DNA of 64,000 bases from Allacma fusca (lineage: Eukaryota > Arthropoda > Collembola > Symphypleona > Sminthuridae): NCBI GenBank assembly GCA_947179485.1, contig OX359246.1, forward strand, positions 31,186,001 through 31,250,000. The letters are read 5' to 3'. Position numbers and translations under genes: made by a program. The first letter of the stretch is position 1; every line of letters starts with the position of its first letter. Below are positions 1-56,752 of the stretch, piece by piece. Below the pieces are notes generated by a model. That model did no database searches. It saw only the letters and a list, made by a program, of their open reading frames with translations, and was not told where the DNA came from.

Positions 1-380
1 TCCGGTCTGGTCCTAGACTTGTATGGTCTGGTCCGGTCTGGTCTAACACTTGGACCAGACCAGATACAATTGGTCCAGCTTCAGGACCAGACCAGACCAG
101 ACCACAGGACCATGGTCCCAAAAGTACGCAAAATAAAAATTTATGAGTTAACGAAATCCTGTGGAACAAATTAAAAATGTCATTTCTGAGGATAAAAAAA
201 ATTTGACTGGATAAAATGTGATTATTCAATTGCTCTGAATGGTTTTCTGGACCATGGTCCGGACCATGGTCTTTGGTCTGGTCTGGTCCGAAAAACTGGA
301 CCAGACCAATGGTCTGGTCTGTGCTTTGGACCAGACCAGTTTCATAAAATCTGGATCAGACCAGACCATTGGCATCACTA
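1..380. mobile_element. Fold-back element with GGTCTGGTCC arms (left end outside window)
   Basis: Bases 1-118 and 243-371 are dense in GGTCTGGTCC and its complement GGACCAGACC, and they flank an AT-rich core, so the piece can fold back on itself. The right end reads GGCATCACTA at 371-380. Its complement TAGTGATGCC resembles the TAG-type ends of the other hAT-like elements in this window. If it is the same kind of element, the next 8 bases (381-388, GTATTTGT) should be its target duplication. The left end lies before base 1, so this cannot be tested here. Confidence 0.6.
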
Positions 381-954
381 GTATTTGTGAATCATCGAGA
401 TGTACATGATTTAGACTGGAATAACGCAAAACATAATTATGTATAGTCATGAATGGAACTCATGTACTGGATTATGGTGGTCTAGTAATACTGATTTCTG
501 GGTACTGACAGCAAGATACCAAGCATATTGGGGATATAACTCGTAAACTTCACAATTGAATGAAAATTTGGAGTGAATAGTTTCAAACAATTTCCAGTTC
601 GTGTCAGAGCGTTTGATTGGAATGTTTACAATATTATTTACCTTACTAGTGGAGTCAAATAAATTCCAGTATGTAAATGTTGTAATATTCGTTAATACTG
701 CTTATTAGATTTGCTGTTTAACATCAAGAAATATTAGCATTCGCAATTTTCTTAACTCCTTGAAGTTTAACAAAAGTTTCTCTCGCCCATTTGAACCTGA
801 TACCAATGACAAACCAATGGAATATCCACATTTCGAACAAAGACAAACATGTGACTATAAGTGTGGACTATTTGGAACGAACTGGGGGTTTTTAGGGTGG
901 TGTTAGCCCCCTAGTAAAATAGCCTTGTCCGTACGTCCGAGTGTCCTTCCGCAC
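381..954. other. Unassigned AT-rich DNA
   Basis: No convincing exon, RNA gene or repeat was seen. Around 925-960 there is a CCGTACGTCCG-like stretch similar to the one at 37455-37480, so this edge probably belongs to an old repeat family. Confidence 0.4.
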
Positions 955-1500
955 GATTACTCAAAAGCTACTGGTCCGATTTCAATGACATTTTTTATGG
1001 ATTTTACTTGTGTCAAAAGTAAGGCTGAGTTTGTATTTGGTTGAAATCGGCCAGATAGTTTTTGAGAAAACAATTCTTGAAATTTTGGATTTCACGTCAA
1101 ATGACGGCCGTTATCTCCAAAACTATTGAATGTATTTCAATGAATTTTTTTGTGAGTATTGCTTATGTAAATAGTAATGTTTATTGCCTATGTGGTTGAA
1201 ATCGGCCCGGCAGTTTTTTCGGAATCTGAAATATCGAACTTCAAGTCAAATAACAGTTATTTCTAAAACTAATAAGTCGATTTCAATGAATTTCCTTTAG
1301 TATTGTTTATTGCCAATGTATCGGCCCAGTAGTTTTTTCGGAAACAAATCTGAAATTTCGAACTTCAAGCAAATGATAGTTATCTCTAAAACTACTGAAT
1401 CGATTTCAGTTAAATTTTTTGTGAATATTGCTTATGTTCATAAATCGTAATGGTTATTGACAATGTGGTTGAAATCGACCCGATTGTTTTTCGAAAAAAA
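955..1500. repeat. Four diverged tandem units of about 110-160 bp
   Basis: Units begin near 964, 1121, 1268 and 1391. Each carries, in the same order, GATTTCAATGAATTTTT-like sequence, TATTGCTTATG, GTTGAAATCGGCC, AGTTTTTTCGG, AACTTCAAGTCAAATGA and TTATCTCTAAAACTA. The copies differ by many substitutions and small deletions, so the array is old. The short open frame across 1450-1650 is a by-product of the last unit. Confidence 0.7.
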
Positions 1501-2160
1501 CTCAAAATTCATCATACTTTGACGGCGGTAGCTGAAGTCTCAAATTATCGCGTAGCGAGGATTTTTTCCTATACTTTCAATTTGGAAAATTTGGGAGTAG
1601 TTAGAAATGTCCCTATTAAACCTTGTATTTTCAATTTACGAAGTAAGTAACATCCCAAGTAGCATTTTGAATCGGATATATGGTGGAAAAGTTACGGATT
1701 AGTGGAAATCAGTTGGCGACGGAAACATACAAAGAGCCGCCGAATCTCCGATGCATTAATATTGTTGGCATTTAGCGTTTAGCTGACGGATTTACTCCTA
1801 CAGATTTCCGCCTTTTTTCCAAATATAAAACTCATTGTCGTTTTGCCAGCAACCAAAAGATAGCTTTTCTCTTCCTGAAATAAACTGCTATTTATGCAAA
1901 GAATTGGCCGTTAGCAACGTACATACATAGAGTGTACGTACGTACAATGTGAATTCCGTTCATTTCCATTTGCAACAGGGGGATATCCTTGGAGCAGACC
2001 GGGAAGACTTATCAATTAATAATTAATAATAATTAAATAATAAAATAATAAAAAATTATAAATAATAATTAATAATAATCAATTAATAATAGGGCTCTCA
2101 AAAAATTTGTTTTTTCCTAATTTATTTTAACAAAAGAAGTAAAAAATCGTCTCAAAAGGA
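1501..2160. other. AT-rich DNA with a TAA-type simple repeat
   Basis: No gene was seen. Bases 2012-2090 are a degenerate TAATAAT/AATTAAT simple repeat lying shortly before the retrotransposon that follows. Confidence 0.5.
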
Positions 2161-2451
2161 AGAGTGCTGTCTCTGGAAGTCAGTTGGGGTATAAAAAGTG
2201 TAAAAAACCCCCAGGAGTGGTTATAGGCCAACGATTGAGAGGAATACTGAAACGGGCGGCGTGGTGCATATGTACATCAACACTACGGATACAATACTCA
2301 GGAGAACTTCGCATAAAAATAATAGCTAAGTCATTTTTGAATAAAGTATACGCTGGGCCGGGCAATTCATACCTGATTTCATAGTGATTATCCGTGTGGT
2401 ACTAGCACCTTTGGATTTTTGTATACGCAGAATACAATACTGGACATCGCT

Positions 2452-4237: not shown

Positions 4238-4499
4238 AAAACTAGACAGGAGCTAGTAAAAGCTAGAAAGGCCTATACAATCCTTTGTAGTAAATTAAAA
4301 CAAGCATATCTACAAGAAATACAGGATAACGTCAGCAATAGTAGGAATAGCAGTTCTGGGAAAGTATTAAAAAATGCAGGTTTAAAGAACAAATTAAAGG
4401 TCAAGTTGGTATACAAGAATGGGAAAGTTTTTACTCAAACACTATGCCCATGAAAGAGATAGGACTTCGATATTATTGCAATACAGGTGAACACTATTT

Positions 4500-5205
4500 G
4501 GACTCAGATATCACATAGCGGAATTAAAATGTGCCATAAAAATTATTAGAAAAGGTAAATGCCCTGGAATGGATGGAATTCCAAATGACTGCCTCCAAGA
4601 TCTGCCTATAGAATGGGTACATAGATTACTAGACTTTTGTAATAACATATTTCGCTTAGAAACGTGCTCAGATCAAATGGCAGAAATTGAAATGATTACT
4701 TTATTTAAGAAAGGCAATAGAATGGACCCAGCTAATTATAGTTGGATAGCCTTGATCAGCTGTATTACTAAACTTTTCACTCAAATAATTTTAGGCAGAG
4801 TAAGTAACTGAGAGAACAGCTGCAAGATAATACCGGAGTCCCAAGCAGGCTTTAGAAAAAACAGATCATGTGTAGACCAAGTATTCTCCCTATCAGGGGT
4901 AGTACAGAATCACTTGAGAATACCTGGAAGGAAAGTTTACGCTTTGTATATAGATTTCAAGCGAGCGTTTGACTCTGTATCACACAATCTACTATGGACA
5001 AAACTCCATAAATTTGGCCTTAGCGGGAAAATTATAAGACTCTGAATTAATTATTTTAAAATTATAGAACTTCTGAAGGCTATACGAAATATCAGGACGT
5101 CAATGAAGGAGTTCTGCAAGGGGAAATGTTATCCCCACTGCTCTTCTCCATCTTCATCTCAGACATGGAAACATTTTTTGAAGAAAACGGTACCTGTGGT
5201 ATAAG
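4500..5205 (+). pseudogene. Retrotransposon ORF2, reverse transcriptase 5' part
   Basis: Several frames together carry reverse transcriptase blocks: KCPGMDGIPND, FKKGNRMDPANY, QAGFRKNRSCVDQVF, the first catalytic Asp block ALYIDFKRAFDSVSH, and QGEMLSPLLFSIFISD up to the DNA-element insertion. Stops lie at about 4809 and 5043, and there are frame changes between blocks. The order and spacing fit a Jockey/CR1-type enzyme. The coding text is interrupted at 5206 by a transposon and resumes at about 6471. Confidence 0.85.
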
Positions 5206-6462
5206 CAGTGCTCGGCACGGGTTGGGTAATACTCGGGTAAACGGGTATGGGTACGGGTTTGGGTACTACCCGGGTACGGATTTTGTGTACCCGAACCATT
5301 CCGGGTACTACCCGGGTACACTTTGGTCGGCTCAAAATTTCGGGTACGGATACGGGTACAAGGATTTCAAAATAAGTATATACCCACCGGGTACGGGTAT
5401 AATAGTGTCATTTACCCGTACCCGGGACCATTGTACCCGAGTATTTGGATATGTTGAGATTTGAGACATTTTGATGCATTTTATGAAAATAATGGAACTT
5501 CCGTTGGAAAATTATGTCGGTATTTTTAGTAATTCTGAATACATATAGTTTATTGTTAATACCCTTTTAACCTTACAACATGCAGTAACTGGATTTCAGA
5601 CTGTTGCTAAAATATATATTTATATCTATAATGTATATTTTTATGGAAACAGGTTTTAGGAAGAATAATTAATAAACAGATGAGGAATAATATCAAAATA
5701 GAAGTGGAGAATAGGTTTCAACGAAATTTTATACAAAACGTCTTCATAATGTAGTAATTTGTTACTAATTGCATAAATAGTCTGATTGACACGTATGCAC
5801 ATGATACTTAATTAACCACAATGAATACAATTTAAAAATTAGAGTTCCGATTAGTTGGATGGCAAGATATTTTTTGTAATTGGTAGTTCATTAGGAAAAG
5901 GCGGATATTTCTAACAAGGTATTAATGAGTTACATGTACACAGAGCTACTGAGATGAGAAAATTAATGTAAAAGGCCGAATAAATCAAGAAGTAAAAAAT
6001 CGAGTCGCCAAGTCCCAAGCCAAAAATGCAAGTACATATGGACTGGGTGCTATAAAATACTTCGCCCATCAGCCCAACAATCAAATGGGGATAATTTTAC
6101 TTCTAATCAAAAACGCTCTACTCTTTAATAAAAATATATAATGTCAATTACCTCTCTAGCTAGTCAAAATTACCCTTAGTCAGTATTACATTAAAACAAA
6201 TCTGGATAAAGTACCCGGGTACGAGTACGGGTACGACACTGAGATACCCGAGTATGGGTACAATTTTCGAGTATTTTCGGGTACGGGTACAATTCGGGTA
6301 CAGGTACATGGATTGAGATAACATTGCGGGTACGGGTACGAAAAATTTGTACCCGGATATTCGGGTATGGGTACGGGTATAGATACCAGTTATTGAAATA
6401 CCCCCACTTCGGGTACGGATACGGGTACGGGTACCGATTTTTCGTACCCGTGCCGAGCACTG
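5206..6462. mobile_element. hAT-like element with GGGTAC arms inside the retrotransposon
   Basis: Inverted ends CAGTGCTCGGCACGGG at 5206 and its complement ending at 6462 are perfect over 16 bp. The flanking 8-bp duplication is GGTATAAG (5198-5205 and 6463-6470). An 8-bp duplication with a CAG start is typical of the hAT superfamily. Both arms (5206-5450 and 6210-6462) are built from GGGTAC/GTACCC words, and the core is AT-rich without a transposase. Open frames through the arms are repeats of Y-P-Y-P or T-R-T-R type and are not genes. Confidence 0.88.
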
Positions 6463-6470
6463 GGTATAAG

Positions 6471-7670
6471 TATTAACCAACATAATTCTATTATAACACT
6501 AATGTATGCAGATGACACTGTTATTTTATCGTGTAGCCCAGGAGATCTGAAGAAAAAAATTAAAAGTCTGGAAGAATACTGCTCTCTAAATAAGCTTGAA
6601 GTAAATACTTCCAAAACAAAAATTATGATTTCGCCAAAAGGCAACCATGTTCAAAGCAAAACTTTTATTTCAAGGGATCAAAACTAAAAGTAGTCAAAGA
6701 ATATGTTTACCTGGGAGTTCCATTTCACTCGACTGGATCTTTCAGACTAACAACCAGTTTCTTTAAAAAGAAGTAAAATATAGCTAATGTCAGAAGTATT
6801 AAAGATAATCAAAATATTTAAGTGAACTCATGGCAATCAATTATAAAAATATTTGAATCAATGTGCATGTCAAATATGCTGTATTCAGCCTGTGTATGGG
6901 GTTTGGGAAACGATGAGACCTTAGAATCAGTTCAGCCCTCCTACATTAGAAAGGTTCTTTGCCTGAATTACAGTACCTCCTATCACGTTAGCAGAATAGA
7001 GGCAGGACGGTGCAAAATCAAATGAACGATCCTTAAATTAGCATTGTTATACTTATATAAAATTATAAAAATGGAATGCCACCGCCTCCCATATGTTATA
7101 CTTAAGAAACTAATACAACTAGATACAAATAGTGAATACCCACCAGAATGGAACTGGGCAAGACTGATCAGAACAGAGCTTCATAAATTAGGTTTTGAAA
7201 TTAGTTGGGATAATCTAACTTGGGAATGGATAGGGAAACATTTTAATGCAATTATAGAAGCGTCTTCAATGCAATCTCTATTGCATGATGTAGACGCTAT
7301 CATTAACTCTAAGCAGACACCTTTATATAAATATTTTCTAAGAAATGAGGTGTATCCTGGATACCTAACGTCCGATTTGCCTTTCCATAAGAAAAAACTA
7401 ATAGCACAAGTTAGACTAGCGGCGTTTGAGAAATCGTAAATTAGATGTAGAAATTACCTTTGTAAAATTAATGTAAATAATATATGTTCTCTTTGTGGTT
7501 ACAGCCAGGAATCATGGATTCACTTCTTCGCAGAATGTCATGCCCTCGAAAATGATAGGAAACACTATTTAGGTCATTGCATGCAGTATCAAAATATAGA
7601 TATTAAGACAAATTTTGCCAACATAATGTGCAGCGCCGAGTGTATCATTAAACGAGTTATACGAGTTTTT
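6471..7670 (+). pseudogene. Retrotransposon ORF2, reverse transcriptase 3' part and C-terminal Cys/His motif
   Basis: Resumes just after the inserted element with the catalytic LMYADDTVIL block (6499-6530), then CSPGDLKKKIKSLEEYC and a YVYLGV block in another frame. Further pieces at 6822-7025 and 7044-7439 are the thumb-like and C-terminal regions. Near 7470-7570 a motif of the form C-x2-C-x7-H-x4-C (CSLCGYSQESWIHFFAEC) matches the Cys/His tail common in Jockey/CR1-type ORF2. At least four frame breaks are present. Confidence 0.8.
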
Positions 7671-7968
7671 CTACGGTTTGTATAGAACAGCCAAATATAT
7701 ATCTAAGTATATTGGATTTGATAAATAATTATAATATTTCATTAAGAGACGTTTTGTAAAAATGTGGATCTGCTAATACGTTAATTCGAAAAATGAGTTT
7801 TTTCTGTAAATCTTGTGTATGAGCATTCTCAAAAACACAATAAATATACACATACACATTTGCAACAGTTTTGTGGCAGTTCTTGTCTCTGAAGCTCCGT
7901 TCTGTAAAAATACTGTGTATTTCTTTCTCATTTATCTTATTTATCTATCCAAATTCCACCTGGCTGTT

Positions 7969-8168
7969 ATGGAAAGAAAGTATGCAGTGATTGAGTTTAC
8001 GAGTGAAGCATGTGTTGCGTTAGTGCCAAAATGTTGGCTATTTGACTGCAACTCCAAGTGCTTTTGGCCCCCGTTAGAAGGTCAAAGTTTGAAATCCGCC
8101 GTCAAAAAAAGCAATCAATCCAGAAAACAACTGGACGGTTTGTGCAGCCAGAGTAATCCGACAACTTG
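7969..8168 (+). CDS. Possible first exon of an N-terminal 'WPP' type arthropod protein
   Basis: The ATG at 7969 opens MERKYAVIEFTSEACVALVP, followed by CWLFDC, CFWPPLEGQSLKSAVKK and a basic tail, with a good donor (TTG|GTAAGT) after 8168. A start of this shape (AVVEF, VP-x-x-WL, WPP, Lys-rich) occurs at the N-terminus of arthropod proteins often associated with DUF4806 or transposon-related genes; I recognise the pattern only loosely. Joining to the obvious next acceptor near 8275 gives an immediate stop, so the rest of the gene was not found. It may be a fragment left beside the retrotransposon. Confidence 0.35.
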
Positions 8169-8169
8169 G

Positions 8170-9727
8170 TAAGTATAATTATAATTTGTGTAGAAATAAT
8201 TGCTAAAATTATAATTTGCGTTGAGTTATAAATTTAGTTGAGAGCTAAACATTCCGAAAATATTTGTTTTTTTAGAGATGACTACAACGGTGGGTTACAG
8301 CTTGTTTCGAATCTCCACCTGCAAAGCGAGTAACACAACCTTCACAAAAGTCTAATTTTCTACACCAGAAAGAAGAAATCATTCCTGCAACACCTGGTCA
8401 GCATTTGAAAATAACCTGAACTTGGATTAAGAATTTGAAGCTAAGCAGTCCCTTTGAAGTCTACTACCTTGTACAAATTTTCAGCATTTTACTTTTAGTA
8501 AATTAAGCAATATAAATTTTAAATGATTTTCTATTATTTGAATGATATGACAATTGTTACTAGTAATATATAATTAATGATGCAACTGAATGTCACATTA
8601 TTTGTGATTGAAACAAAATGTAAAAAAATTAGTTTTAGTAAATTTACTTCGAAGAATTTTCTGTAATTAATGAATGTAATTAAAATGTTGTTATTGTTAC
8701 TAATATAACGATATATTTAAGTTGTAGCGATGACATGATATGACATGACTACTCATTGTTTTATAAACTTGCAGGATGTACCACCACTACGCTATCCTAT
8801 CCAATGTTGCAAACTTGACATTATGTATCTAACATTGAAGAGATCTGTTAAATTTTAAATATTTTGATGGTGTATAATTTGAAGCATAAGTGTATATTGC
8901 TCCCCTTTTCTTGCAATAAGTTTCTATGCGTCCCCAAGGCAGAATAAATTTTAACTTGTAATTAATTTGTAAAATGCTGACAATTAGTTGTGAATAAACT
9001 TGAACTAACAAAGTATGCAAGTCTTTTTAAAAATTTTAGCATCTGGTTGACACATTATAGAAAGTCGGCATGATGACAATTATCTACGGGCCTATTGTAG
9101 AATTGACTATTGTTTTAGGTCGGAATTCGGTCGGTTCAATATTGGACCATCATTGGTGAGCACATTGTGGGATGTGGTCGGCAAGAACGCGGATTGTGTT
9201 GGATCGTTTGACAGTTGGCAGTGGCGACAAAAACAGTTAGTGGGACGATCTTTTAGCACCCGTATCGGGCCAGTGTCGGTCCATTGAAAAATGTTACTAT
9301 CTCGCGGGGAAATGGGCGACTGCAAACTACCAGTTCAAGGATTCCGGGGTTGCTAGTTTAATTTGGTCGGGATCTTTATAGTACGGCTGAGAATAAATGC
9401 TCTCAGAATTTTGGCATTTACTTGCGTTACGGAATTTGGCAAATAAATGCTATTAATTTTAATTTGTTTTCGCCTGTTGCGCAGATCCGGCTTTCAATCA
9501 TCTCAAACCGTTTGTTAAATTTGTGGAGTGTGACGATTTCGGAGTATCATTAAGTCTTCGTTCTGCCTGTGAAGACTTTGTGTTTGACTGTTGACTGTGT
9601 TGCTGGCAAATTAATGAATTCAAGGAACTAGCTTTAATAATTCAAAAATACAACACAACTCTTATTGAGCAATAAAAATCGAAGATACAAACGCCTAAAT
9701 GGGTTTAAAGGAAAGTTGTGCTTTAGG
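8170..9727. other. Non-coding stretch upstream of the first receptor gene
   Basis: AT-rich, no exon supported. Around 9110-9260 a GC-richer patch contains TCGGTCGG and GGTCGG words and may be an old repeat. Confidence 0.35.
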
Positions 9728-9811
9728 AAGTCAATATTTAATTTCCATTAGAAGCACTATGGAAATTGAATTACGCAGAAGGAATCTGACGTAGTAACTC
9801 TTCCATCAACT
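9728..9811 (+). promoter_or_regulatory. Upstream block duplicated with the neighbouring receptor gene
   Basis: This stretch, about 235 bp before the ATG at 9965, closely matches 14358-14444, which lies about 225 bp before the ATG at 14584. Shared text includes AGTCAATATTT, TCCATTAGAAGCACTA, GAAATTGAA, TACGC and GTAACTC. It is the best preserved non-coding part of the tandem duplication, so it is likely 5' UTR or proximal promoter. Confidence 0.5.
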
Positions 9812-9964
9812 AAAACATTTTTCCCTTACTGGCATTTAAAGCACAAATGGATAAAATTAATTTTTAGCATGAAAATTAACTTTAGCAATGGTCATTTCGG
9901 AATATTGTAGAACTCGTAGCGTAGAAAGTTAAAGCGAGGATATTGCACCAGTAGCTTTTTTAAA

Positions 9965-11468
9965 ATGAGAGGATTTTTGAAGAGTGTGATGATAATTTTG
10001 TGGGTTCAGGGTTTTATACATGACAAATCCTTGTTTTCTATTCGCAATCAAAGATACCCATCAACACGCTGCTATATACATACTACTATTCACGCTATCT
10101 TAACTTTCTTACCATTCATTTATCTTGAAAACATTCTGGGCAATACCAACATACAAGAAACATTACGAGCAAAGACTTTACCAGATATTTTTATTTTACT
10201 CGCAATGAATGTGTTTTATAGATTAGTGCCATTCATTGTACGTCTAACGGCATTTTTTAGTACAACGAAATCGGATCAAATTTTCAGAGCCCTCTGGGGT
10301 TTTAAATTGTATGTAAAAATGTCGCGGAGAGGTAAATTTTTAATTATTTTAGGCTCGACCTGCTTGCTCGTCTTCTGGTTTCTGAACTTTTGTAGAGTTT
10401 TTTTGGAGACTTTTGTATTCCATACAGACAGTATTTTGTACCATGGAAATTCTATTTTGAGTAGATCCAAATCTGTGACAGCCATTTTGTATTATTTACT
10501 GAGACTCTCAAATATAGACGCAATGCTGTGTGCATTTTCCTTCATTTATATTGTTGGAATTCTTCTGGCTGAATTTTATGTGTCAATTTGTACCAGAATA
10601 ACTTTAATTTGGAAACTAATAATGTCAGCTAGTAGTACGGGAACTCCCAATGGAGTAATCAACGTGAATAAAACCGATTTTACGGAAACTGTACATTCCG
10701 TTTTAATCTTCCAAAAATGCTTTAAAATGTATTCGGACGTTGCGGGAATTTATGCAATTTGTGTCATTTGGGTTTTTATTATTGTTTTCATTGACACTGC
10801 TGACCATTTGGTTGGATGGAGAACCCTTACAGCTTACCAGCTAATTATAATGACCATGTATACATATTTTTTTTTAATTTTGTCTAGCTTTGGTTACTTT
10901 ACATATAACCAGGTAACTCTCCATTATGTTCAAGAAAACGTTACTTTAAAGCAGGCTGTTTCCAGATTACTTATTTGGAGTGTTTATTTGAATTTTTGTT
11001 TTATACATAATCAGGTACATGAAAGTCGGGAAAAACTTGCTGATGCTTACAGTGATTTCAAAGTAAACGCAACAGCCGTTGCAGATATTCAAGTAAGTTA
11101 TTATGTCTCAACAAGTTAATTTCTATGTCCAGAAAAATATTGTCAAGAGGCGTACTTGCAAGAATACTTACCTGTGAATAAACATAAAGCGCTGATTTTG
11201 ACGTTGTGCCTTCGTTTTAGTGGGAAGGAGTTACAAAACGGTTTCTGGAATGGCAATGGAAATTCAAAGCCAGGAATGTGTTTAAAGTGGATAGAAATTT
11301 GGTGGGACTGGTGAGTTGTCAGTGCAAAAATGTATTGTGGTTTATGATAGACATTCATTTTTATTTCAGGTCTTTGGCACGGTTTTCACCTATTTCATTG
11401 TCGTCTATAACCTGAAACTAGAAGGACAGGAGGCTTCTCTAAAGATGTATAAGAACAACACGGCTTGA
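9965..11468 (+). CDS. Gustatory-receptor-like seven-TM protein (copy 1)
   Basis: Four exons, all separated by phase-0 introns: 9965-10912, 11015-11092, 11221-11310 and 11370-11468. They give about 404 residues, the usual length for insect-type gustatory receptors (7tm_7 family), which are ligand-gated channels of chemosensory neurons. Features that fit are several hydrophobic segments, a large first exon followed by three small phase-0 exons at the C-terminus, and a last exon with FGTVFTYFIVVYNL, comparable to the family's TY-x5-QF end. The ATG (AAAATGAGAGG) is shared with the paralogue at 14584. No ligand can be inferred. Reading through the first donor gives a shorter frame ending at 11119, which I reject because both paralogues splice at the same place. 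Confidence 0.8.
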
Positions 11469-14357: not shown

Positions 14358-14444
14358 GTAAGTCAATATTTGAATTCCATTAGAAGCACTAAAGAAATTG
14401 AAATACGCGGAAAGAATTAGACGCAGTAACTCCTCCACCATCAG
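14358..14444 (+). promoter_or_regulatory. Upstream block duplicated with the first receptor gene
   Basis: Counterpart of 9728-9811 at nearly the same distance from the start codon; see that entry. No TATA box was recognised at either site. Confidence 0.5.
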
Positions 14445-14583
14445 AGATAGATGTTTTCTTCACCTAGAATTAAAAGTAGAAACCGCAAAAATAAATTCTC
14501 AGTTATAAACTAACTTCAGAAAGGGCAGAACCCATGGTACAAAAAGTGTAATCCAGGCATTTCCTGTGTGTAGTATTTCTAAA

Positions 14584-19522: not shown

Positions 19523-19534
19523 TACTTTGGCCAA

Positions 19535-25659: not shown

Positions 25660-25804
25660 ATTCATAGAGTAAAACCGAATTGAATTGGATTGTTTTTATA
25701 CTGGACCGAATCACAAAACGGTTAACGATTCAGTCCACATAACTAATTGAATTGAATCGAAAATTTCTGAATTGAATTGAATCGTTCCGACCACTACTCC
25801 AGAT

Positions 25805-36395: not shown

Positions 36396-36711
36396 AGGAG
36401 GTTCTTTTAATTATAATCCATTACGCGGCCAAAATTATTTTGGAAAAATATGCATTCTACGAAGAACAACACTCCCACATTTACAGCACTACCAATGGTA
36501 TTAAAGCTTCAAAGCTGGTCAGTATAAATTTGGTGGTAGAAGTGCAAGTATTGAATACAAAAAATAATCATAAGTTGTCGTATGGAACACTATAGTAGAA
36601 TAAATCAGTGCCAGGGGGAGACAGTTTAAAGGCGCCATTATGGTGATGAACTCCTGAGACGTGAGCTGAAATAGTCCTTTTGGTGTTGCGAGCCAATTCC
36701 TGTTGTTAAAA

Positions 36712-37741: not shown

Positions 37742-37862
37742 AAAAACGAGTTGAATGACGACACCGTAATAGCAGGGTTTTAGTTAAAACTGTTATATGT
37801 ACATCAACTGAAATCCCTCAATGCCAGTCAAGGACGTCAGGACATGAATGGGTAAACCCGTC

Positions 37863-41015: not shown

Positions 41016-41023
41016 CCATCAGG

Positions 41024-45798: not shown

Positions 45799-46412
45799 TA
45801 GAGCATCTCGGGCGGTTAAAATTTGCGGGTAAACCCGTAAAAAGCCCGGCCCGTCCGGGCTTCGGGCGGGTACGGGTAAAATTTATTACGCTTGACGGGT
45901 TACGGGTGGGTACGGTCTTTTCAATACGGTTAAAAAAGACCGCGAAAGCCCGTAAAAGCCCGTGAAACAATTCATGAATGGTGCATGCAGGATAAGGGGT
46001 TTTATAAGTACATTGACTTGAATACATGGAACGATTTTCAAACATTTGTAATTTGACCTTTAAAACGAAGCCTTAACATTCAACGTCAACGAATTAAATG
46101 ATAGAAAATAGCCTGAAAATCGCAAGTTTGGAAAACATTTAAACAGATATTGGCTGACTACATGTTTCCATAAATTATGTGAAGTGCAATGAGTGCAGGA
46201 ATATTTTAGCAGGCAATCGCGCCAAGTAGAGACATCATCTCTGACTAAACATAATTGTAAGAATTCTGCAGTGGAAGCAACTCTTACCAATTTCCGTTAA
46301 AAAAAGTCGAAAATGCAAACTTGAATGAACAAATTGTTCTGGGTCTATTGCTATGGATTTACAAGCTGAACTAGTATTAACGGGCGGGCTACGGGCTTTT
46401 TTAAATTTTACG
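45799..46412. mobile_element. hAT-like element with CCCGTA arms, right end decayed
   Basis: The left end TAGAGCATCTCGGGCGG is preceded by GTACCGAA (45791-45798), and the same 8 bases follow the right end at 46413-46420. Arms contain CCCGTAAAAGCCCG and GGGCGGGCTACGGGC words. The right terminus lacks the mirror of the left end, but a solo copy of that mirror (CCCGAGACGCTCTA) is seen at about 55442-55456. Confidence 0.7.
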
Positions 46413-46550
46413 GTACCGAATGACCGGTTATAGTTTAGATTCACATTGGAATTGAATATCAGGTTCGGATCCAAGTTCAAGTTTGAATTGACGTTCGAGT
46501 TTTAATTTAGGGAGATATATAACTGTTATGTCTCTTTCTTTTCAAAAGTT

Positions 46551-47791
46551 TCAATGTTTGAAAGCAATTAGAACCCGAACAGTGTTTAGTACAACAAATA
46601 TAATGAAATTCGGGGTCGAGGCACGTTCCAGTTTGTTGAAGTCACCTACAAGAAACCCAATGTTAGGAATAGCACGGATTCTTCTGCAAATAAATGGGGC
46701 ATCCCGGGAGCACATCAATTTAGCTGTAATAAGTATCTTCCGCTTGAACTTCTGTATGCTGGCAGGTGCAGCAAATGCTTTATCGAAAATAGTGACATAG
46801 GCAGTGGTGAGCTCAAAGGAAATTCCCAAGTACATTATCGCATAAAAAAGGGAGTAGTGCATCGAGTAAATTCCAATTGATGTGAAAAAAATCGTCATTG
46901 TAATGCAGTAAATTTTGTAACCAAACATATTGAAGTGCCTTCCGAGATTAAATAACTGAATCCACAGTTGTAATTCTACAATATTTTTGACCTCATCACG
47001 TAGTTCTTGAATAGATATGAGGAGACGGCGTGTTCTAAAATAAGTATAAAATCTTTATCCCTGTAACCTTAATGTGACAGTGTACTTGTGAAGTGAGAAA
47101 AAACTAAGCTTGAAACTCACCCCAAGGATATTCTTTGCATTCCATTTAATACTCGGTCAACACAATTTTGGAAAAATATGATATCTACGAAGAGTAATAC
47201 CGCCGCATTTAACAACACTACCAGCGGTAATAGAGCTTCAAAGCTGGTAAGTATAAATTTGATGGTCGAACTCCTCCATTCTGGTGCAAGCATTGAATAC
47301 AAATGGTGATCAGCACTTGCCCAATGGAATACCAAAATTGAATGATTCAGTCCGAGGATTAGACAATTTGAAGGCGCCAACATGGCGATGAATTCTTGAA
47401 TCGTGAGCTGAAATAGTCCGTTTGGTTTTGCTAACCAATTCTTCTTTTTAAAGAGGGAGTTGAATAATGACACCGTAATTTCGGAATTTAAATTAAAACT
47501 GGCATACATCAATTGAAATCCCACGATGCCGGTCAAGGACGTCAGAATATGATGGGGTAAAGTTTGGATCCGTAAAGTTCGGTTAGCAAAGCGTACCAAC
47601 ATTATTGTTGTTGCTAGAATACCTCTGAGTCCGATCACAAATGTGAATCCCGTCCAAACCTGTCGTCGTAGCTTCGACTTTTGTAAATACATTTTTCCAA
47701 TGTCCGGATAAACCTTTATAGGGATGATATTTAAAAGCGACCATATTTTGAATAGCCGTAGGTTGAACTTGATATAACTTGGAATTACCAT
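46551..47791 (-). CDS. Seven-TM chemoreceptor-like protein, family B (gene B3)
   Basis: Exons 47791-47121 and 47034-46551, phase-2 intron, about 384 residues, intact. It opens MVIPSYIKFNLRLFKIWS like its paralogues. Membrane segments include WTGFTFVIGLRGILATTIML, HHILTSLTGIVGFQLMYASF, LLPLVVLLNAAVLLFVDIIF, KIYCITMTIFFTSIGIY and NFIIFVVLNTVRVLIAF. The C-terminal GFLVGDFNKLERAS motif is conserved. It is very close to gene B2 (42257), which it probably duplicated with. Likely a sensory receptor at the neuronal surface; ligand unknown. The family assignment is by topology and clustering, not by a classical gustatory motif. Confidence 0.72.
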
Positions 47792-48099
47792 GTTTTGGTA
47801 TGAAATTTCTTGAAGATTTTGTTCAAATGGTTGTATCGCTGTACTGGAATGACCCAGAATGTACCGAATTTATAGTGACTGGGGATTCGAGTTTCAATTA
47901 CCATATTCACTTCGATATTAATGCGAATGTTCTTTTGATGTATGTACATATGCAAATATAAATTGTTTTACTCACTTAAGAAATTGAAATTATTCAAAAA
48001 TTGTTTACTCTGTAAAATTGTTTCCGACAATGTTTATTATTTATACAAACTAGATATGATTGTAGGAATACTTACTAAATAAGAAAGTCATTCGCTATG

Positions 48100-48310
48100 A
48101 ACATGATAGGTGAAATCTGGAGCCTTCACGTTGGATTAGTAGAGCGTACCAATAAAATTATTGTTACTATAAAACCAATTAGAGTGCGATAGCAAACGAT
48201 CGTATATTACACCGTTTTAAGTATATTTTCCCAAGATTTGGCCGAACTTCTGTGATGATAATGCTCAAAATCTGCCATGTTTTGAATAATCGCAACTTGA
48301 ATTTGTTATG
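48100..48310 (-). pseudogene. 5' remnant of a family B receptor
   Basis: The strip 48140-48310 aligns with the first ~75 codons of gene B3. Shared words include AGCGTACCAA, ATTATTGTT, TATTTTCCCAAG-like, GATGATAAT, CCATGTTTTGAATA and CAACTTGAATTTG. The frame is not open and the rest of the gene is missing. The remnant is cut off at about 48312 by the next repeat. Confidence 0.65.
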
Positions 48311-48311
48311 A

Positions 48312-48893
48312 TGAGGGTAGTGCATCGCATGGGTTCAAAACAGTCGAACCTGAACCAAAACCTGGACCCAAACTTTGGGTACCTCAAAAGTGTGAACCTG
48401 TACCTGAAAATGTACCCATTTAACAGGTTCAAATATTTCGATCCTGAACCTGACATAATTGCATTTTTGTAGTACCCGCACCTGACTAGTACCTGATCCC
48501 GAAAAAGTACCCAACAGACAACCTGAACCCGGGTATTTTTGAACCGGACCTGAACATGTTTGGGTACTTGAGAATCCGAACTTTTTTAAAATTTTATCTT
48601 GTATTAAAAGTACAAATATTACAAAATATATTTAAAATGAATAAGAATGCAAGTTCTCTGGTTCCTGGGACACCCTGCCATTGCTTTTGCGATGGAAATT
48701 ATCTTGGAAGCTTGAAATTCTCCGGCCTTTAACTTTCAATTAATGAACCCAAACATTTCAGATCTTTTGTGATCAGGTTCAGGTCTTTCATGTGTTACAC
48801 CTGGTCCTGACAGGTAAAATCAAAACGGGTTTTTCTCTGTACCTGGTCCTGAACCTGTACCCAATTTCACGGGTAAAAAATATTGTACCCAGA
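48312..48893. mobile_element. Element with ACCTGAACC arms, right end not found
   Basis: Left terminus GTAGTGCATCGCATGGGTTC at about 48316, followed by CTGAACC/GTACCC words to 48560. An AT-rich core runs to 48770, and complementary GGTTCAGG/CAGGTCCTGA words continue to 48890. The expected right end (GATGCACTA) is absent, and a minisatellite begins there instead. It looks like the other hAT-like fold-back elements but lost its right end. Confidence 0.6.
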
Positions 48894-49617
48894 AAGGAGA
48901 CGCAATACCTATTTCAGAGACGCAATCCCATTTTCAGAGACGCAATCCCATTTTCAGAGACGCAATACCTATTTCAGAGACGCAATCCTATTTTCAGAGA
49001 CGCAATCCCATTTTCAGAGACGCAATCCCATTTTCAGAGACGCAATACCTATTTCAGAGACGCAATCCCATTTTCAGAGACGCAATCCCATTTTCAGAGA
49101 CGCAATTCCTATTTCAGAGACGCAATCCTATTTTCAGAGACGCAATCCCATTTTCAGAGACGCAATCCCATTTTCAGAGACGCAATCCCATTTTCAGAGA
49201 CGCAATCCCATTTTCAGAGACGCAATTCCTATTTCAGAGACGCAATTCCTATTTCAGAGACGCAATCCCATTTTTCGAGACGCAATTCCTATTTCAGAGA
49301 CGCAATACCATTTTCAGAGACGCAATCCCATTTTCAGAGACGCAATCCCATTTTCAGAGACGCAATCCCATTTTCAGAGACGCAATACCTATTTCAGAGA
49401 CGCAATCCCATTTTCAGAGACGCAATTCCTATTTCAGAGACGCAATACCATTTTCAGAGACGCAATCCCATTTTCAGAGACGCAATCCCATTTTCAGAGA
49501 CGCAATCCCATTTTCAGAGACGCAATACCTATTTCAGAGACGCAATCCCATTTTCAGAGACGCAATTCCTATTTCAGAGACGCAATCCCATTTTCAGAGA
49601 CGCAATCCCATTTTCAG
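48894..49617. repeat. 20-bp minisatellite, left part (about 36 units)
   Basis: Tandem units with consensus AGAGACGCAATCCCATTTTC and a few variants (ATACCTATTTC, ATTCCTATTTC, ATCCTATTTTC) in mixed order. Unit length is kept at 20 bp throughout. The plus strand has no stop in any frame because a 20-bp period reads as one 20-residue peptide in all three frames. The long open frames here are therefore artefacts of the repeat. The array continues at 50967 after an inserted LTR. Confidence 0.95.
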
Positions 49618-50966
49618 TGATACGCTCTTTTTAGCGTAGAAATAAGTATTTGATACGTACATAATAACGTAAGATTTTATGTAATGGTAGTAATGAGAAT
49701 AGGATGTTAGAATGAACGTAGGAATGAGTACATGTGAATAGCACGCAAATAAACTTGCTGACCGTTGGCTTTAATAAAAATGTCCAGAGTTGGAAAAGTT
49801 CTTCTCTGTGTGTGTAGAAATTACCCTTTGGCTCCTCTCAGTCCGAGCGGATGAGAAGAGGAGGGAAATCTCTCCATGCGTAGGACGTATATATATACAA
49901 GTTATTAGTGCGTAATAAGCTTGAGACCATTGTATTTTAGAGTGTAAGACATTTTCCCAGGGAGAACAACTTTTGATTTCAAAGCATGTTAGTACATAAG
50001 TGTAACCATAGTTACGGTCTTATAACCATAGGGTTAGGAGGAAGTTGTTTTGTAAATAAGGGAGACAAAGTAATTTTGTTCCGGAGCTCATAAGATTTTA
50101 CGAGGGTGAGGGTTATAAAAACTCCTTCCTAAGTACTGGGATCTGTCTCGGACAATGGGTTCGATCTTTACGGTAATAAATGTAAACTTTGATAAGACCT
50201 AAGATTAAGAAAGTAATTGAAAATGATATTGCTTATGTATGTATTGCCATGTGTTTAAATGCAAAGCAATCTCGAACCGGCGCCAGGATGGCGGGGTTGG
50301 AACTTGGTTTCGGCCAGATGGTCCGGTCATAAAAATCTATTCAATTGACTTCGGATTTTGAGAGTACGGTTGCGGCCGAGTATAAATACCCCAGGAAAAT
50401 CTTACAGATTCACAGTCGATCTGAACACGCCGATCCGAAACGCTGTCCTCTTGGACTCTCACTCTCTCCCTCTTCGTATAGCACTCGGGTTTCGGTTCTC
50501 TCCCTTTTTACTCCCATTTTATCAAAAATACTCTTGCTCTCAGAATCGAGTAGTTTTTCTGAAAGATAGCCTTTACTCTCAGAAGAGGAAGGATTTTACC
50601 ACAGCTCTTCAGGCTGGTGGATTGTATTTCGAGAAATTTTGAGAAAGCATTTAGAATTTTGATAGGAATTTTGGGAAACCTTTTGGGCAACCCTTTGATA
50701 ACTTGTAATAGGAATTACACTTGAACTTTTATAACTTTATTAACTTTGTAGTTAGATTTAGAGAAGGTCTTCTTTGAATTAATATTTTTAATCAGAATTA
50801 AATCTTAGTGTTAACTTATAGTTTAGAAAATCAAACAAAGATATTATTAAGTTCCATTTTTGTATTTGTCCAAAGTTAAATAAAATCTCTTCAACATTTG
50901 AAGAATCAAAAGTAAACTTGAGGGAAATCATAGAACGTTATTTCCACTCAACTCAGACCCCTAACA
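49618..50966 (+). mobile_element. Solo LTR inserted in the minisatellite
   Basis: A 1349-bp unit beginning TGATACG and ending CCTAACA (TG...CA). It is flanked by TCAG on both sides (49614-49617 and 50967-50970). Removing it together with one TCAG restores the 20-bp repeat register exactly. It contains a TATA-type box (TATAAATA at about 50381) and an AATAAA near 50878, the layout of U3-R-U5. No internal retrotransposon genes are present, so it is a solo LTR left by recombination. Open frames at 50345-50642 are not genes. Confidence 0.85.
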
Positions 50967-51540
50967 TCAGAGACGCAATCCCATTTTCAGAGACGCAATC
51001 CCATTTTCAGAGACGCAATCCCATTTTCAGAGACGCAATTCCTATTTCAGAGACGCAATCCCATTTTTCGAGACGCAATTCCTATTTCAGAGACGCAATC
51101 CCATTTTCAGAGACGAAATTCCTGTTTCAGAGACGCAATCCCATTTTTAGAGACGCAATACCTATTTCAGAGACGCAATCCCATTTTCAGAGACGCATTT
51201 CTTATTTCAGGGACGCAATCCCTGTTTCAGAGATGCAATCCCATTTTCAGAGACGCAATACCTATTTCAGAGACGCAATCCCATTTTCAGAGACGCAATT
51301 CCTATTTCAGAGACGCAATCCCTGTTTCAGGGACGCAATCCCATTTTCAGAGACGCAATCCCATTTTTAGAGACGCATTTCTTATTTCAGAGACGCAATC
51401 CCATTTTGAGAGACGCAATTCCTGTTCCATGGGCGTAATCGTATTTTCATGGACGTGATCCCATTATCATGGGCGCAATACCTGTTTAATGGACGCATTC
51501 CCAGTTTGTTGGACGCAATCACATTTTCATGGACGGAATC
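50967..51540. repeat. 20-bp minisatellite, right part (about 28 units)
   Basis: Continuation of the array at 48894-49617. Units are uniform at first and become diverged after about 51410 (ATGGACG, ATGGGCG variants), the usual decay at an array edge. Confidence 0.93.
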
Positions 51541-52329
51541 CCTGTTTCATGTGGGCCAACCGTCTTTCAGGGCCGGTATCACTGATTTTCAGTTGGCGGT
51601 TCTTCTTATTGTTTTCGCTGCTTCAAAAAATTAAATCCGGTTGTTTTTTATAAAATCATAGTTGCTCAATAGAGGATCCCGGATTTTGTTGAGCAAAAGT
51701 AGTATGTTTTAAAGAATTTCCTATTTTTGATGTAAATTTCAGTAATATTGTTGAGCATAAGAACAACATTTATTAAAATAGTCTTGCTTTTGAAAAATCC
51801 GATCATGAACGCATAGATATCGAACCCCGGTTCAACAGTAGTCTAATTGTCATTTAAGCATTATAACAACAGGAGTAAGTAAGTCATGTACATAGCCATT
51901 TTTTAAACGATAATAGTTATCTTTAATAACATGCTTCGTATTTTTTGCTTAATTGCCACCATTTGGTAGTATGCTGTACCATTGTGTCACTTTACTTCGA
52001 TCTAGCCTCTCCTCCCAACAATTTTAGAATTGAAAATTAGTTTTCATGTAAGCCACGGTACTGATTTTAACCAAAATAGACTTACGAGTCTAGGGCGATT
52101 CGCTTTAGAGATATATCAACTCAGATGATATCATATATCTGCGTGTCATTAACTTTAAAATCACAGCGAAGTGAATAGAAACCATTTGACACATTGTATA
52201 GTCACATCCAAAGGCTCCAGATTAACGACTACAGAAATGTAGGTACTTTGAAATCTCGTGTATGCAATAATTGACAATAAATTGTTTTATTAAAAATACT
52301 ATATATGTATGTGCATATTTCACGCGAAC
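51541..52329. other. Intergenic, nothing recognised
   Basis: About 0.8 kb AT-rich DNA before the 3' end of receptor gene B4. Confidence 0.45.
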
Positions 52330-53561
52330 CTACGATTTACGTTGAAGCATGATCAAAACCCGAATAATATTTAATGCCACAAAAATAACGAAATTTGGAG
52401 GAGACGCTCGTTCTAGCCTATTGAAATCCCCCACCAAGAATCCAATCTCTGGAATGGCGCGGATCATTTGACGAAGGGCAGTAGCATCAACTGTAGAGAA
52501 CGATTTCTTTGTCGACAATAGTTTCCTCCTCAGTTTCTGAATACAACTTGGCAATACAATGGCTTTGTCCAAAATAAGAATATAAATTGTTGCAACCTCA
52601 CACCCTATGAACAATTCTGTTAAACCGGCCAAAATGTTAATGTGAAGGATGTAGATTCCAAAGGAAATGTAGAAAATTGTCATCGTTGTAAAATACAATT
52701 TTGAGGCATACAAATTAAAGCGCATTCCTCGGTTAAAGAGCTGAATCCACAGTTGTAGCTCTCGAATCTTTTTGTAGACCACTTTAGTTTTACTGAATGA
52801 TATGAATAAACGTTGTTTCCTGGGAAACAATGCTAAACAAAATTACTTCTGTCAATATTTTTATAGTAGATAAATTATTATTTAAAAATCACCTACCTTG
52901 AACTAATTTCAGTAACCAGGAGCAATGATTGGTCATGACACTTTTGGAAAAATAATAGGTATGTAAAAATTATGAAGGCAGTATTCATTGTGGATACTAT
53001 GGGCAACAGAGCTTCAAAAAATGTTAGAAGTATTGTAACAAATAGAGATTTTGAATTTGAAGGAATCAGTGGTAACAAAAAATGATCGGAATTCGGTTTC
53101 CAAAATGCAAATATAGCGTACAAGGTCATTACCACGGAGATGTTACCAGGGATAAATACTGCCATTAATTCCTGGACAGATAACTTTTTCGTTCGCGTGA
53201 CCATTCTAATGTTACGTTGGAAAAGGGAGTTAAATATTGCAATGGTGATTTCAGGATACCTGATGAAACTTGTGTGTATTACTTGAAAGCTAGTGAAGCT
53301 ACCGACCATGTTTGCAATATGAAACGGTAGAAAACTCAGCTTGATAGTTCCATTTGCCCCGTGAATAAAAACAATGATTATTGCTAGTAAACCTCGAATT
53401 CCAACAGCAAATAATAGAAAAATCCAGAGTTGTCGTCTAAATTTCCTAGTTTCCAATTTTATGACTCCCCAGTACGGGTTCACTTTAAAAGGGATGAGAT
53501 TCAGAGTAGACCAAAAATGAAATATCCACAAACACATTCGTATTTGCTTGGGTCGGAGCAT
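52330..53561 (-). CDS. Seven-TM chemoreceptor-like protein, family B (gene B4)
   Basis: Exons 53561-52897 and 52819-52330 with the same phase-2 intron as the other members, about 384 residues, intact. It starts MLRPKQIRMCLWIFHFWS. Hydrophobic segments include LWIFLLFAVGIRGLLAIIIV, LPFHIANMVGSFTSFQVI, AFIIFTYLLFF and NFVIFVALNIIRVLIML. The C-terminal IGFLVGDFNRLERAS-x-PNF block is kept. It is the most diverged gene of the cluster together with B1, while B2 and B3 form a young pair. It lies beyond the minisatellite, so the cluster spans at least 19 kb. Role inferred as chemosensory receptor. Confidence 0.72.
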
Positions 53562-54951
53562 TTTTAGTCTTGGGACGGCTAAAATTTCCTTGTAATTCTT
53601 TTCTTAGGCCCTACCTTTTAAGTGACTAACAATAAGATGTGCAAGACCACATAGGCTGAGAAAATATAAATGCTTACTTTAGCAAGTAAGTCACAAATAA
53701 GTATGATTCTAAGCAATTGAAATAATGTGTACAAAATGAACTGTAATATTATCTGCGATATTAAAATGATTTCCCGGAATTCAACAGTTTAAAATGTTAA
53801 AAATAAATGATTAGGTTGAGTTAGCATGTGCTCATTTGAGTTTTGAGACGGAAATAGTAATATGTCAACATAGTAATACCCTGCTTCCTTAAGCTTTTAT
53901 ATTTGACCTGCCAGCTTCAAATTTGGGTGGAAGCAATTTGCAAATGTTCAAAGCCCAGAGTGCTGGTAACGTTTATCAAAATTATAGTTTCTGTATAAGC
54001 GTATAAATTATTTCCACATTTCCGGAGAAATACCAAAATTAAAAATAATTCCTTAGAGAATACTATATAATGTAAGACATATGTGCACACGGAATAGGGC
54101 TTCATTCTTGCAAGCACTCATATTATTTTTGGGCGGTCTAATAATGAGAACCATTTAGGGATTCCAGCTTGGAAATACTCCACCGTGGGAAGGTATAATA
54201 TAATAAAATTACAAGTATTATTAATAAACGCTTGTGCTCGGTATCAGTTTTCGTATGAATGTTCGAACAGGTTTGTAATTTCGTTTCTGATTTTTTTAGC
54301 AATCAATTTCATTTTTGTAATAGTTTCATGTATCAATAAGTTGCTTCACCATGATTTTGGTTGTAATGTGAGCAGGTCTAATTTTTAATGACATATTTAT
54401 AGCCGAAATTGTACAACTGCACGTGAGCAGAGTTACAAAATTGAACATGCCTCGGGTTTTATGCCTGCCGACCTGAAAATCTAATGAAACTGCCCTAAAT
54501 GCCCTCAAATGCCCGGTATTTTGCCAGAAATATATACGCTTATAACCATTATTGCTCGTCTGGTGTACATTGGGGAGTTTTTAATCAAGCTCGTCCAGGA
54601 CAAATGTTATGGTTCATTTTCTAAATTTAAATTGGCCTAACTCGTAAATTATGGTCAGTGATTAAATAATTAGTTGTTTAGGATTTCACAAACCCTTAAA
54701 AAATTTAATTAAAAATTTAATTAGAAACGTTATAAAAAACTTTCATGGGGCTTTGAAAGAATAATTTGCCAAGTTCCGAATTTCGACAAAGACTAGTGAA
54801 AAATACCAAATAGAAATAAATATATACCGAAACTGAAGTTTTGTAAGATGAACTTCGGATTTTGCAATTTCATTACATAAGATGCGGTTATAATTATTTC
54901 AAAACTTGGACAAAGCAATTTGGTGCCGACTTTGGAAATTGCATTTCATCA
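53562..54951. other. Intergenic, nothing recognised
   Basis: About 1.4 kb AT-rich DNA upstream of gene B4. Short open frames at 53917-54508 are unsupported. Confidence 0.45.
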
Positions 54952-54959
54952 GCCCAAAT

Positions 54960-56752
54960 CAAAGATGCTGGCCTATCCTACATGTAGGCCTATTTTAAGG
55001 GATGTGCCACAAATGACGTCATCCAAAAATCTGGCAAATTAAGACTGACTAACTGGATGATCATTCGCCGTCACAACGCAGTCCGACTGACTATATATCA
55101 CGTCTTGTGTGCCTGTATACATACATGGGTATAGTACAATACTACAGGATGCTTTATAATTCAAAACTGAGCTCGTTTGCGAAAAAAAATTATTATCGCT
55201 AACAATTAATCGGCTTTGTTTGACTAGTTTTATTGTCGAGATTTTATTATTGGTCACCGTTATTAGCCATTGATAAACAGAGCATAACATTCAGTTTTAA
55301 TGTCAACAAGCGTTAAACAAAAATCATCAAATCAAAAATCCCATATATGAGCCCCGTAAGTTTTTACACGTACCCGCCCAAAGCACGTGCGGGCCAGGCT
55401 TGTTACGGTTTTTTAATTCATCCGCTTAATAATTCTAATCACCCGAGACGCTCTACCTTACACTACTGTAAAAATGTACCAAAAATGTGCGTTTATATGT
55501 GACCTATTCTATTCCATTTTTAGATAGATGACCCAACCTCCTTTAAAATCAATATTTTTGACTTTTTAGATAACGTATCACCGTGGAAAGGAATTCATGA
55601 TATTTAAAACTATAGCACGGATTAGTAGGCTCGTACTGGATACTAAGGGTTTTCCCATTTGTCAATTGATTTATAACCACACATTTTAAATTAAAATGGT
55701 TATATCGAAATTTTAATCCACCGTTACTTAAATTGCGTTGGAACGTTGGAAGCACCTGCATTAAAAATCTAACACCAGTTACTCTATGCCGTATATTACT
55801 TTTCGATCGATATAACTGTGGCTTTCCGAATTATGGATAGTCACTATAATGCTTTCGAATGCTGAAACCGTTGTTTAAACTTACGATTTCACGCGGGATT
55901 TTATGGAAGAGTTATAAAGGGTGTGGATTAAATAGGCGATGAAAAATGACGTCATGTTATGAAGAAGGGACTCACTGAGTACGTCGTGTGTTAAAACATC
56001 CACGTACATTATGACTGACTGACTAAATGCATGACGTCATTTGTGGCATATCCCTTATAGGGTGCGAGCTATTTGCAGAAAAAATTATAGGCAAAACAGG
56101 GTGCACTGGTTTTCGCAGAAAAAATTTCTATAAGTAGGAAATGCACGTTGGAATATCAGGCTATTGTAGTACCATCTAAAATTTCCCATTCAAAATAATA
56201 TCCACACATAACTCACAATAAGTATACATACACATATATTGCATGTGATTGCTTAATGGCTTATATACTTACTGTAACGTGCAATACGACCAATCAATAC
56301 GAGTTTTCACATAATGCATGAGTAATATTAATTTTGAAGAAGTCCTCACAATCATTTTGTTTAAAAATATGATACATATGATAGTGTAACAAACAATTGC
56401 GAGTGTTTGCTGAATAATTGTTGCATATGAGCGATAGCCTAAATTTTTCCTAAACTAATGTAATATGTCCAAAATAAATTCGCTACAATAAAAACAGCAA
56501 AAGTTAATTACTAATTTTAATAAAAATATCATTTAATTCTACAGCATAGGGTCCCATGTAGGAAGGGGCTAACACTTTCTGTCACCCTATTTAGGCATAA
56601 ATGTAGGCAGTGGCAAATGCCTACCTATAGGCAAGGATAAAGGCCCTAGTAATTAGACAAATTGGCCTAGAAGGAAGGCTGAACGTAAACGTAAACTGAA
56701 TGTATATGTATAGGTAGGAAGTAGGATAGGCAAAATCAGTTTAGCATCTTTG
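54960..56752. mobile_element. hAT-like element with TAGGCCTACA arms (copy 2), carrying a second element
   Basis: Ends CAAAGATGCT at 54960 and AGCATCTTTG ending at 56752. The duplication is GCCCAAAT (54952-54959 and 56753-56760). It is homologous through the core to 26495-27372, and its extra length is explained by an insertion at 54998-56055. No transposase. Confidence 0.88.
54998..56055. mobile_element. TA-flanked inverted-repeat element (mariner-type MITE)
   Basis: Inverted ends start AGGGAT(G/A)TGCCACAAATG and run into the palindrome ATGACGTCAT, 25 bp with one mismatch. TA lies on each side (54996-54997 and 56056-56057). It interrupts the copy-2 element at a place where copy 1 (26495-27372) is continuous. 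Inside, 55365-55456 is a remnant with the terminus CCCGAGACGCTCTA seen in the element at 45799. No transposase frame. Confidence 0.75.

Follow-up and report, generated by a model that had tools for sequence, protein, structure and literature searches.

Family-specific short-word arrays in the arms of probable hAT transposons of the springtail Allacma fusca

In sea urchins, the TU elements combine 8-bp duplications with terminal domains composed of short repeats, and the plant elements En/Spm, Ac and Tag1 carry many short subterminal binding motifs; none of them is known as more than a single family. The terminal inverted repeats (TIRs) of hAT transposons are described as short, 10–25 bp (PMC3942097). 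The hAT element Hermes has a transposase with a BED finger, an 8-bp target site and many short subterminal sites; its structural account reports that the finger binds subterminal AAG(T/C), that two fingers act together on a quasi-palindrome, and that there are 17 such sites at the left end and 14 at the right, some as palindromic pairs (PMC10368747). In Kat1 of Kluyveromyces lactis, a domesticated hAT, the hexamer TGAATT occurs six times near the ends, and its authors suggest that this repetition aids activity (PMC4763223). Galileo of Drosophila, from the P superfamily, with a THAP domain and inverted repeats of >1 kb, has several sites for the transposase DNA-binding domain in its repetitive long ends, as reported from footprint and gel shift, and its authors suggest that multiple sites confer specificity (PMC3688188). 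Among the Mutator-like elements of Aedes aegypti (Muta1 and others), a single genome houses numerous families; their long end regions carry subterminal tandem repeats specific to the family, the repeat number varies among non-autonomous copies, and the duplications are of 8–9 bp (PMC5225508). Here we describe elements with word-built arms in a 64,000-nucleotide stretch (the window) of chromosome 2 of the springtail Allacma fusca, contig OX359246.1, positions 31,186,001–31,250,000.

We consider the elements of the window to be probably, though well short of certainty, non-autonomous hAT DNA transposons whose arms hold arrays of putative subterminal BED-finger sites, a reading drawn from sequence. 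The arrays are an extreme variant of the known hAT subterminal repeats. The sites of Hermes are short and scattered, whereas the Allacma arms run for 100–300 bp and consist largely of a 5–6-bp word; moreover, Allacma has many families in one genome, each with its own word. Kat1 differs in being a single locus with few word copies and no family radiation. The Aedes elements belong to another superfamily, and their 9–15-bp repeats lie within true long inverted repeats (PMC5225508). Term searches of the open-licence literature found no paper on word arrays of hAT elements in springtails.

The initial annotation of the window had listed nine fold-back DNA elements, each with a private arm word and 8-bp duplications. 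Since the one at 24527 sits within the one at 23979, these do not occupy nine distinct places. The eight duplication words that it gave are present on both sides of their elements in 8/8 cases. Seven of the elements also have matching terminal repeats of 10–16 bp at both ends (those at 5206, 23979, 24527, 26495, 36793, 39945 and 54960); the eighth, at 45799, has no right terminal repeat.

The elements are as follows, in window positions and with no strand assigned. Element A (5198–6470, the element itself at 5206–6462) has the duplication GGTATAAG, the TIR CAGTGCTCGGCACGGG and CGGGTAC in both arms. Element B (23971–25804, itself 23979–25796) is flanked by CTCCAGAT, has the TIR TAGTGGTCGGA and the words GAATTG/GATTC, and contains in its right part element C (24519–25667, itself 24527–25659; duplication ATTCATAG, TIR TAGGCCTCCGC, word TCATGT); in L014, a copy of B elsewhere in the genome, the C insertion site is near-unfilled, with one base different. 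Element D1 (26487–27380, itself 26495–27372) has the TIR CAAAGGTGCT/CAAAGATGCT and the word TAGGC/TACATGTAGG in 12-bp steps. Its duplication, GAGGAAGG, is weak evidence, as the window contains that word nine times and some of these lie in the GGAAGG-rich tract next to the element. A GAAGGAAGG tract at 26426–26495 adjoins D1; similar words follow the transposase at locus L046, yet there is no BLASTN match between them. Element D2 (54952–56760, itself 54960–56752; duplication GCCCAAAT, TIR CAAAGATGCT) is a relative of D1 with another element nested within its left arm; this nested element, at 54996–56057, has 30-bp inverted ends TAAGGGATGTGCCACAAATGACGTCATCC and apparently a TA duplication.

Element E (36785–37419, itself 36793–37411) has the duplication ATAGTAAG, the TIR TAGGCATTGGCAT and the words ATATCG/ATCGTT. 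On either side it has at least 60 flanking bases in common with two other places (L001–L003), so the window copy lies in a duplicated segment. Element F (39937–41023, itself 39945–41015) has the duplication CCATCAGG, the TIR CAGGGTTGCT/CAGGGTGGCT and the word TTGATTTAAATCAA. Element G (45799–46412), with the words CGGGC/CGGGTA, is truncated on the right and has its TIR TAGAGCATCTC on the left only. Its alignment to a complete copy in L017 ends 110 bases before the end of that copy, whose duplication is CCTCAAAC; because the right terminal repeat is missing and the alignment falls short, the flanking GTACCGAA is doubtful, and we reject it as the duplication of G. Element H (1–388) is cut by the window start; it has GGTCTGG/GGTCC arms, with 13 exact GGTCTGG and a word coverage of 39%, and a middle (122–240) free of these words.

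That the arms are built of the family word is borne out by counting. The commonest outer-arm 6-mer occurs 5–30 times per element, where 0.07–0.81 would be expected from the window, and 0–2 times in the middle. Word coverage is 25–58% in 15 arms against 0–6% in eight middles; random window segments have means of 0–7% and maxima of 13–58%, such segments being able to fall on elements, and two arms (the left arms of the 26495 and 39945 elements) do not exceed the highest random segment. The arms had further been taken for long inverted arms of fold-back elements. Beyond the terminal repeats, however, direct similarity between the arms is higher than inverted similarity in 8 of 10 elements, equal in one and lower in one. 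Direct similarity lies above the best of 30 shuffles in 10/10 elements and inverted similarity in 8/10, the latter being expected when words occur on both strands. One arm is therefore no mere inverted copy of the other; simple fold-back arms are rejected, and on the same comparison so is growth of the arrays by a replication or repair process acting on hairpins. Nor are the words palindromic as a general rule: the density of 6-bp palindromes in the arms is 1.3–4.7 per 100 bp, the window as a whole having 1.93, and there is a clear excess only in the GATTTAAATC element (4.7) and in L022 (3.3).

Genome-wide searches covered the 392,743,791-base assembly in 91 contigs. The published assembly is given as 392.8 Mb in 95 scaffolds, with chromosome 2 at 75.61 Mb (PMC10427803). 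The A end pattern CAGTGCTCGGCACGGGT occurs exactly 547 + 533 times in the genome, and with at most one mismatch the end patterns of B, C and E occur 564 + 555, 85 + 79 and 121 + 116 times; the reversed control gave 0 in all four cases. Family A has 35 other full-length matches among 40 scored, and two pairs of A ends lie ∼3.3 kb apart (C1:8673932–8677238 and C1:8923381–8926677). Copies elsewhere mostly keep their 8-bp duplications: among 22 copies drawn from the best matches and fetched without requiring a duplication, 17 have an exact one, two match at seven of eight positions, and in three it is absent or not delimited. Family A contributes 12 of these (nine exact, one seven-of-eight, two none), and family E, besides the window copy, nine loci (seven exact, one seven-of-eight, one, L008, not delimited); the last is the coding relative of C described below, which is exact. 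As their flanks are shared, L002, L003 and the window E copy represent one duplicated insertion, and without L002 and L003 the duplication is exact in 15/20.

A scan for any direct repeat with matching inner ends was run over the window and a 200-kb sample (twenty 10-kb stretches drawn from six chromosomes). It returned 99 rows at 6 bp, 17 at 7, 27 at 8, two at 9 and two at 10; it is no clean control, chance rows being expected at short lengths. Eight of the 8-bp rows are from the window, of which six are listed elements and two were dropped as non-elements; the 26495 element fell outside the scan, its two-letter duplication being filtered out, and its ends were seen by direct check. The 19 sample rows at 8 bp gave six elements. 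The 13 dropped comprise 10 in L021 (nine within a TACA repeat), two in L017 with palindromic outer words, and one in L012 that overlaps an element. All six sample elements have exact 8-bp duplications and matching ends; two are B copies (L012 and L014), one is G, and three are others (CATACCTCGGC with GAGTTC, CAAAGCTGGGC with TATGTA and CAAAGATGGGC with CCTATA). Having been selected by their duplication, sample copies were left out of the duplication tests.

A coding relative sharing the arms of a window element was found for family C. At L063 two C ends separated by 4.4 kb, with the exact duplication CTCTAGAT, enclose hAT transposase exons, and TCATGT/ACATGA occurs 29 times in the 610 bases of arms against once in the 3787-base middle. 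Among the five peptides from its exons, the hAT dimerisation domain PF05699 is matched by one (38.4 bits against a cut-off of 21.4) and BED, below the cut-off, by another; a third matches an unrelated model far below its cut-off, and two have no match. The window C copy aligns to L063 in two blocks of 84–85% identity with ∼3.25 kb of middle missing; it is an internal-deletion derivative of the 4.4-kb hAT element. Another C end has a second hAT domain (C1:18084007) 480 bases away. Part of the transposase identified here shares 94% identity with an annotated Allacma protein, and a related Allacma protein, P0002, is listed with PF02892. The residues S66, N67 and R70 of Hermes contact the DNA (PMC10368747); read by eye and not by alignment to Hermes, the motif is G-N-R-R-R in P0001 and S-N-L-I-R in P0002. 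Protein relatives come from Allacma, Orchesella and fungi, several named ZBED1- or RICESLEEPER-like, and a second protein query also matched Folsomia. Many of the top relatives are from mycorrhizal fungi (Entrophospora, Rhizophagus; 25–33% identity), and an old transfer between fungi and springtails may possibly lie behind them. Inside L063, at about 2200–2760, is a stretch rich in AGGTTC and GGGTACAGG, by eye perhaps another nested word-armed element.

At each end of L063 the array separates the coding part from the terminus, a position where regulatory DNA could sit. Arrays might instead act as promoter or silencing elements, bound by regulators of the host or of the element, with a role in expression and not in end recognition. 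By inference we hold this to be very improbable: arrays are kept in deletion copies that have no transposase frame, they are also found past the 3′ end of the gene, and families within a single host have different words.

Membership in hAT, claimed initially for all the elements, is thereby secured for C by the ends, words and duplication of L063; it is strongly indicated for B, and for the others it is proposed on anatomy only, A, D, E, F and G being tied to no transposase. For B, an exact terminus (the 3′ terminus only) follows a hAT transposase domain at L075, along which the B right arm aligns at 74% over 167 columns. The words of H follow the transposases at L068 and L071, with matches to H in pieces of 20–68 bases. 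When the ends of A, B and E (first 100 listed each) were compared by eye with 150 + 150 listed transposase places, none was paired; C ends were paired twice, at L063 and C1:18084007. As a candidate transposase for family A, L061 was rejected, since its A-like left end starts 1290 bases past the domain start and is probably a separate insertion; L081 has a weak likeness to A (69% over 151) and no terminus. Within the window and sample, hAT domain matches were weak only (best E 0.0082). Rfam gave no match at its gathering cut-off, no tRNA was found, and NCBIfam had no match for the one domain queried.

To look beyond individual pairs, the hAT dimerisation domain was searched in the genome, and the best 150 of 860 candidates were scored. 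A first, broader set of 20 transposases was hand-picked from the 150, and a set of 20 related ones was hand-picked from the same 150 by match start in the profile, with several similar rows omitted. From the DNA past each dimerisation domain a 401-base slice was taken, and its top 6-mer was called a dominant word if it occurred at least 7 times. Such a word follows 15 of the 20 related transposases, against 4.75% of 4000 random slices; four pairs of near duplicates reduce the 15 to 11 distinct. Further words in this set include CTTGAC, CAAGTCATG, AAGTTCATGG, GGGAACGGG, GTTTCAG, CTCGAGTTCG and GATTCAATTC. The broader set has a dominant word in 5/20 (L045, L046, L053, L054 and L059), of which L053, L054 and L059 resemble the related group by eye, L053 distantly. 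Dominant words are thus commonest in one group of related hAT transposases, with weaker arrays in others, and the initial suggestion that several unrelated families had grown arrays independently finds no support. Confinement of arrays to one lineage is nonetheless tentative, because the related group itself supplied the slice offset, because longer flanks of the broader set, when scanned freely, have a 6-mer at least 7 times in some 250-base window in 12/20 (background not run), and because arrays are visible in L055 and L056.

Words and enzymes vary together. Across 14 transposases, word similarity correlates with domain identity at a Mantel r of 0.63–0.64 (k = 4 to 6; 0 of 20 000 permutations each), and for the arrays alone r is 0.63 (0 of 5000 permutations). 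The DNA before the arrays, a small control with nine usable sequences, gives −0.10 (3323 of 5000 permutations). By BLASTN, matches join 8 of the 91 pairs of arrays and no pair of pre-array sequences, repetitive arrays aligning more easily than other DNA. The initial proposal that the words are expanded transposase-binding sites gains from this indirectly; what is reported of Hermes counts in part against inner sites being needed.

Several observations weigh against arrays of BED-finger sites. The co-variation is partly expected from common descent. The BED match in L063, at 18.8 bits, is under the curated cut-off of 20.6, and five of the 20 related transposases (L064, L070, L076, L079 and L082) lack a dominant word. 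The spacing of repeated 4-mers over 32 arms, counted in favour, has maxima at 5, 6 and 12 bp and lesser ones at 10, 11 and 24, but these lack a shuffled control and tandem repetition by itself yields unit multiples. In the Hermes account, the inner sites of the right end are unbound by BED domains in the structure, mutants of inner left-end sites keep about 70% of activity, and the authors judge auxiliary transposase binding further inside the ends unlikely (PMC10368747). Pairwise difference among family A copies is 1.1% in the left arm, 2.2% in the right and 1.7% in the middle, such that the arms are not better conserved.

The last point would also be accommodated by neutral arrays, in which replication slippage in copies spreads a word that lay by chance near the ends, the words have no binding role and are shared by descent. 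Word similarity does track descent, and the arm indels of at least 6 bp in family A measure 12, 6, 12 and 12 bp for a 6-bp word, along with some 1-bp gaps. A check of arm length between copies had been proposed at the outset, and in A changes do occur by word slippage; in family E the indels in or at the arms, of 9, 8, 11 and 7 bp, fit no single repeat unit, and the notion that arm indels are always whole words is rejected. Slippage by itself does not account well for arrays that stand beside the terminal repeats at both ends and are absent from the middle across families, for likeness of array content between transposases with neighbouring DNA too diverged to align, or for the rarity of dominant words in random slices. 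On balance we regard purely neutral arrays as rather unlikely, and prefer arrays of putative binding sites.

The remaining alternative concerns identity: some of A, D, E, F and G could be of another superfamily with 8-bp duplications, for example Mutator-like. For these five no transposase was found, and no search for the Mutator family was made; the ends of D (CAAAG) depart from the C/TAG type. In Aedes aegypti, 10 of 12 long-TIR Mutator-like families are reported to have 9–15-bp subterminal tandem repeats along with 8–9-bp duplications (PMC5225508). Set against this, A, B, C, E, F and G have short terminal repeats of the C/TAG type, and the layout of their arms is as in the hAT-linked families. 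Among 29 pooled duplications, 40 of the 58 strands have T at position 2, which we take to fit the Ac group of hAT. We therefore consider a different superfamily unlikely, and retain hAT for these elements on their anatomy.

Other features of the window and sample were seen in passing. Tandem arrays of one 20-bp unit (GAGACGCAATCCCATTTTCA) at 48897–49617 and 50967–51542 hold 36 and 29 copies and are open in more than one frame. Repeated similar open frames at about 9920–15561 and 34217–53603 resemble, on inspection by eye, clustered genes for membrane chemoreceptors, and at 37672–37709 there is a perfect GACG repeat of 9.5 copies. In L017, two long inverted-repeat structures lie at 4476–8622 and 7362–9814, the arms of the one agreeing fully for their first 185 bases and those of the other for at least 300.

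If the arrays are what we propose, each word would be bound by the BED zinc finger of the transposase belonging to its own family, and an array would offer the multimeric enzyme many docking sites, half or whole helix turns apart. Such docking could raise occupancy and aid selection of the correct ends, with cutting and then 8-bp staggered insertion following the ordinary hAT route. Deletion copies, which retain both arrays, would presumably be mobilised in trans. Array length would change through slippage, and the words would drift along with the enzyme, such that related enzymes come to have related words.

A bolder possibility, which we put forward only tentatively and think somewhat doubtful, is that one hAT lineage radiated into many families by change of the recognition word, BED finger and array co-diverging as lock and key. 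This would include a shared spacing of half or whole helical turns and would end cross-mobilisation between families and their deletion copies, parts to which we give the same limited credence. Our expectation is lowered because whole-word change was seen in A only and confinement to one lineage is only tentative. Should the arrays prove to be neutral slippage tracts, the story would be a striking but ordinary one of repeats. If recognition-word radiation is true, change of recognition would be a motor of transposon speciation, bearing on the open question of how a transposase changes its recognition site yet keeps its own ends. One genome may hold a natural set of matched enzyme–word pairs: about a dozen related transposases, each beside a dense record of its putative preferred site, together with deletion copies carrying the same sites. 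From such a set the specificity of BED fingers could be read by comparison, and independent transposase–end pairs could result.

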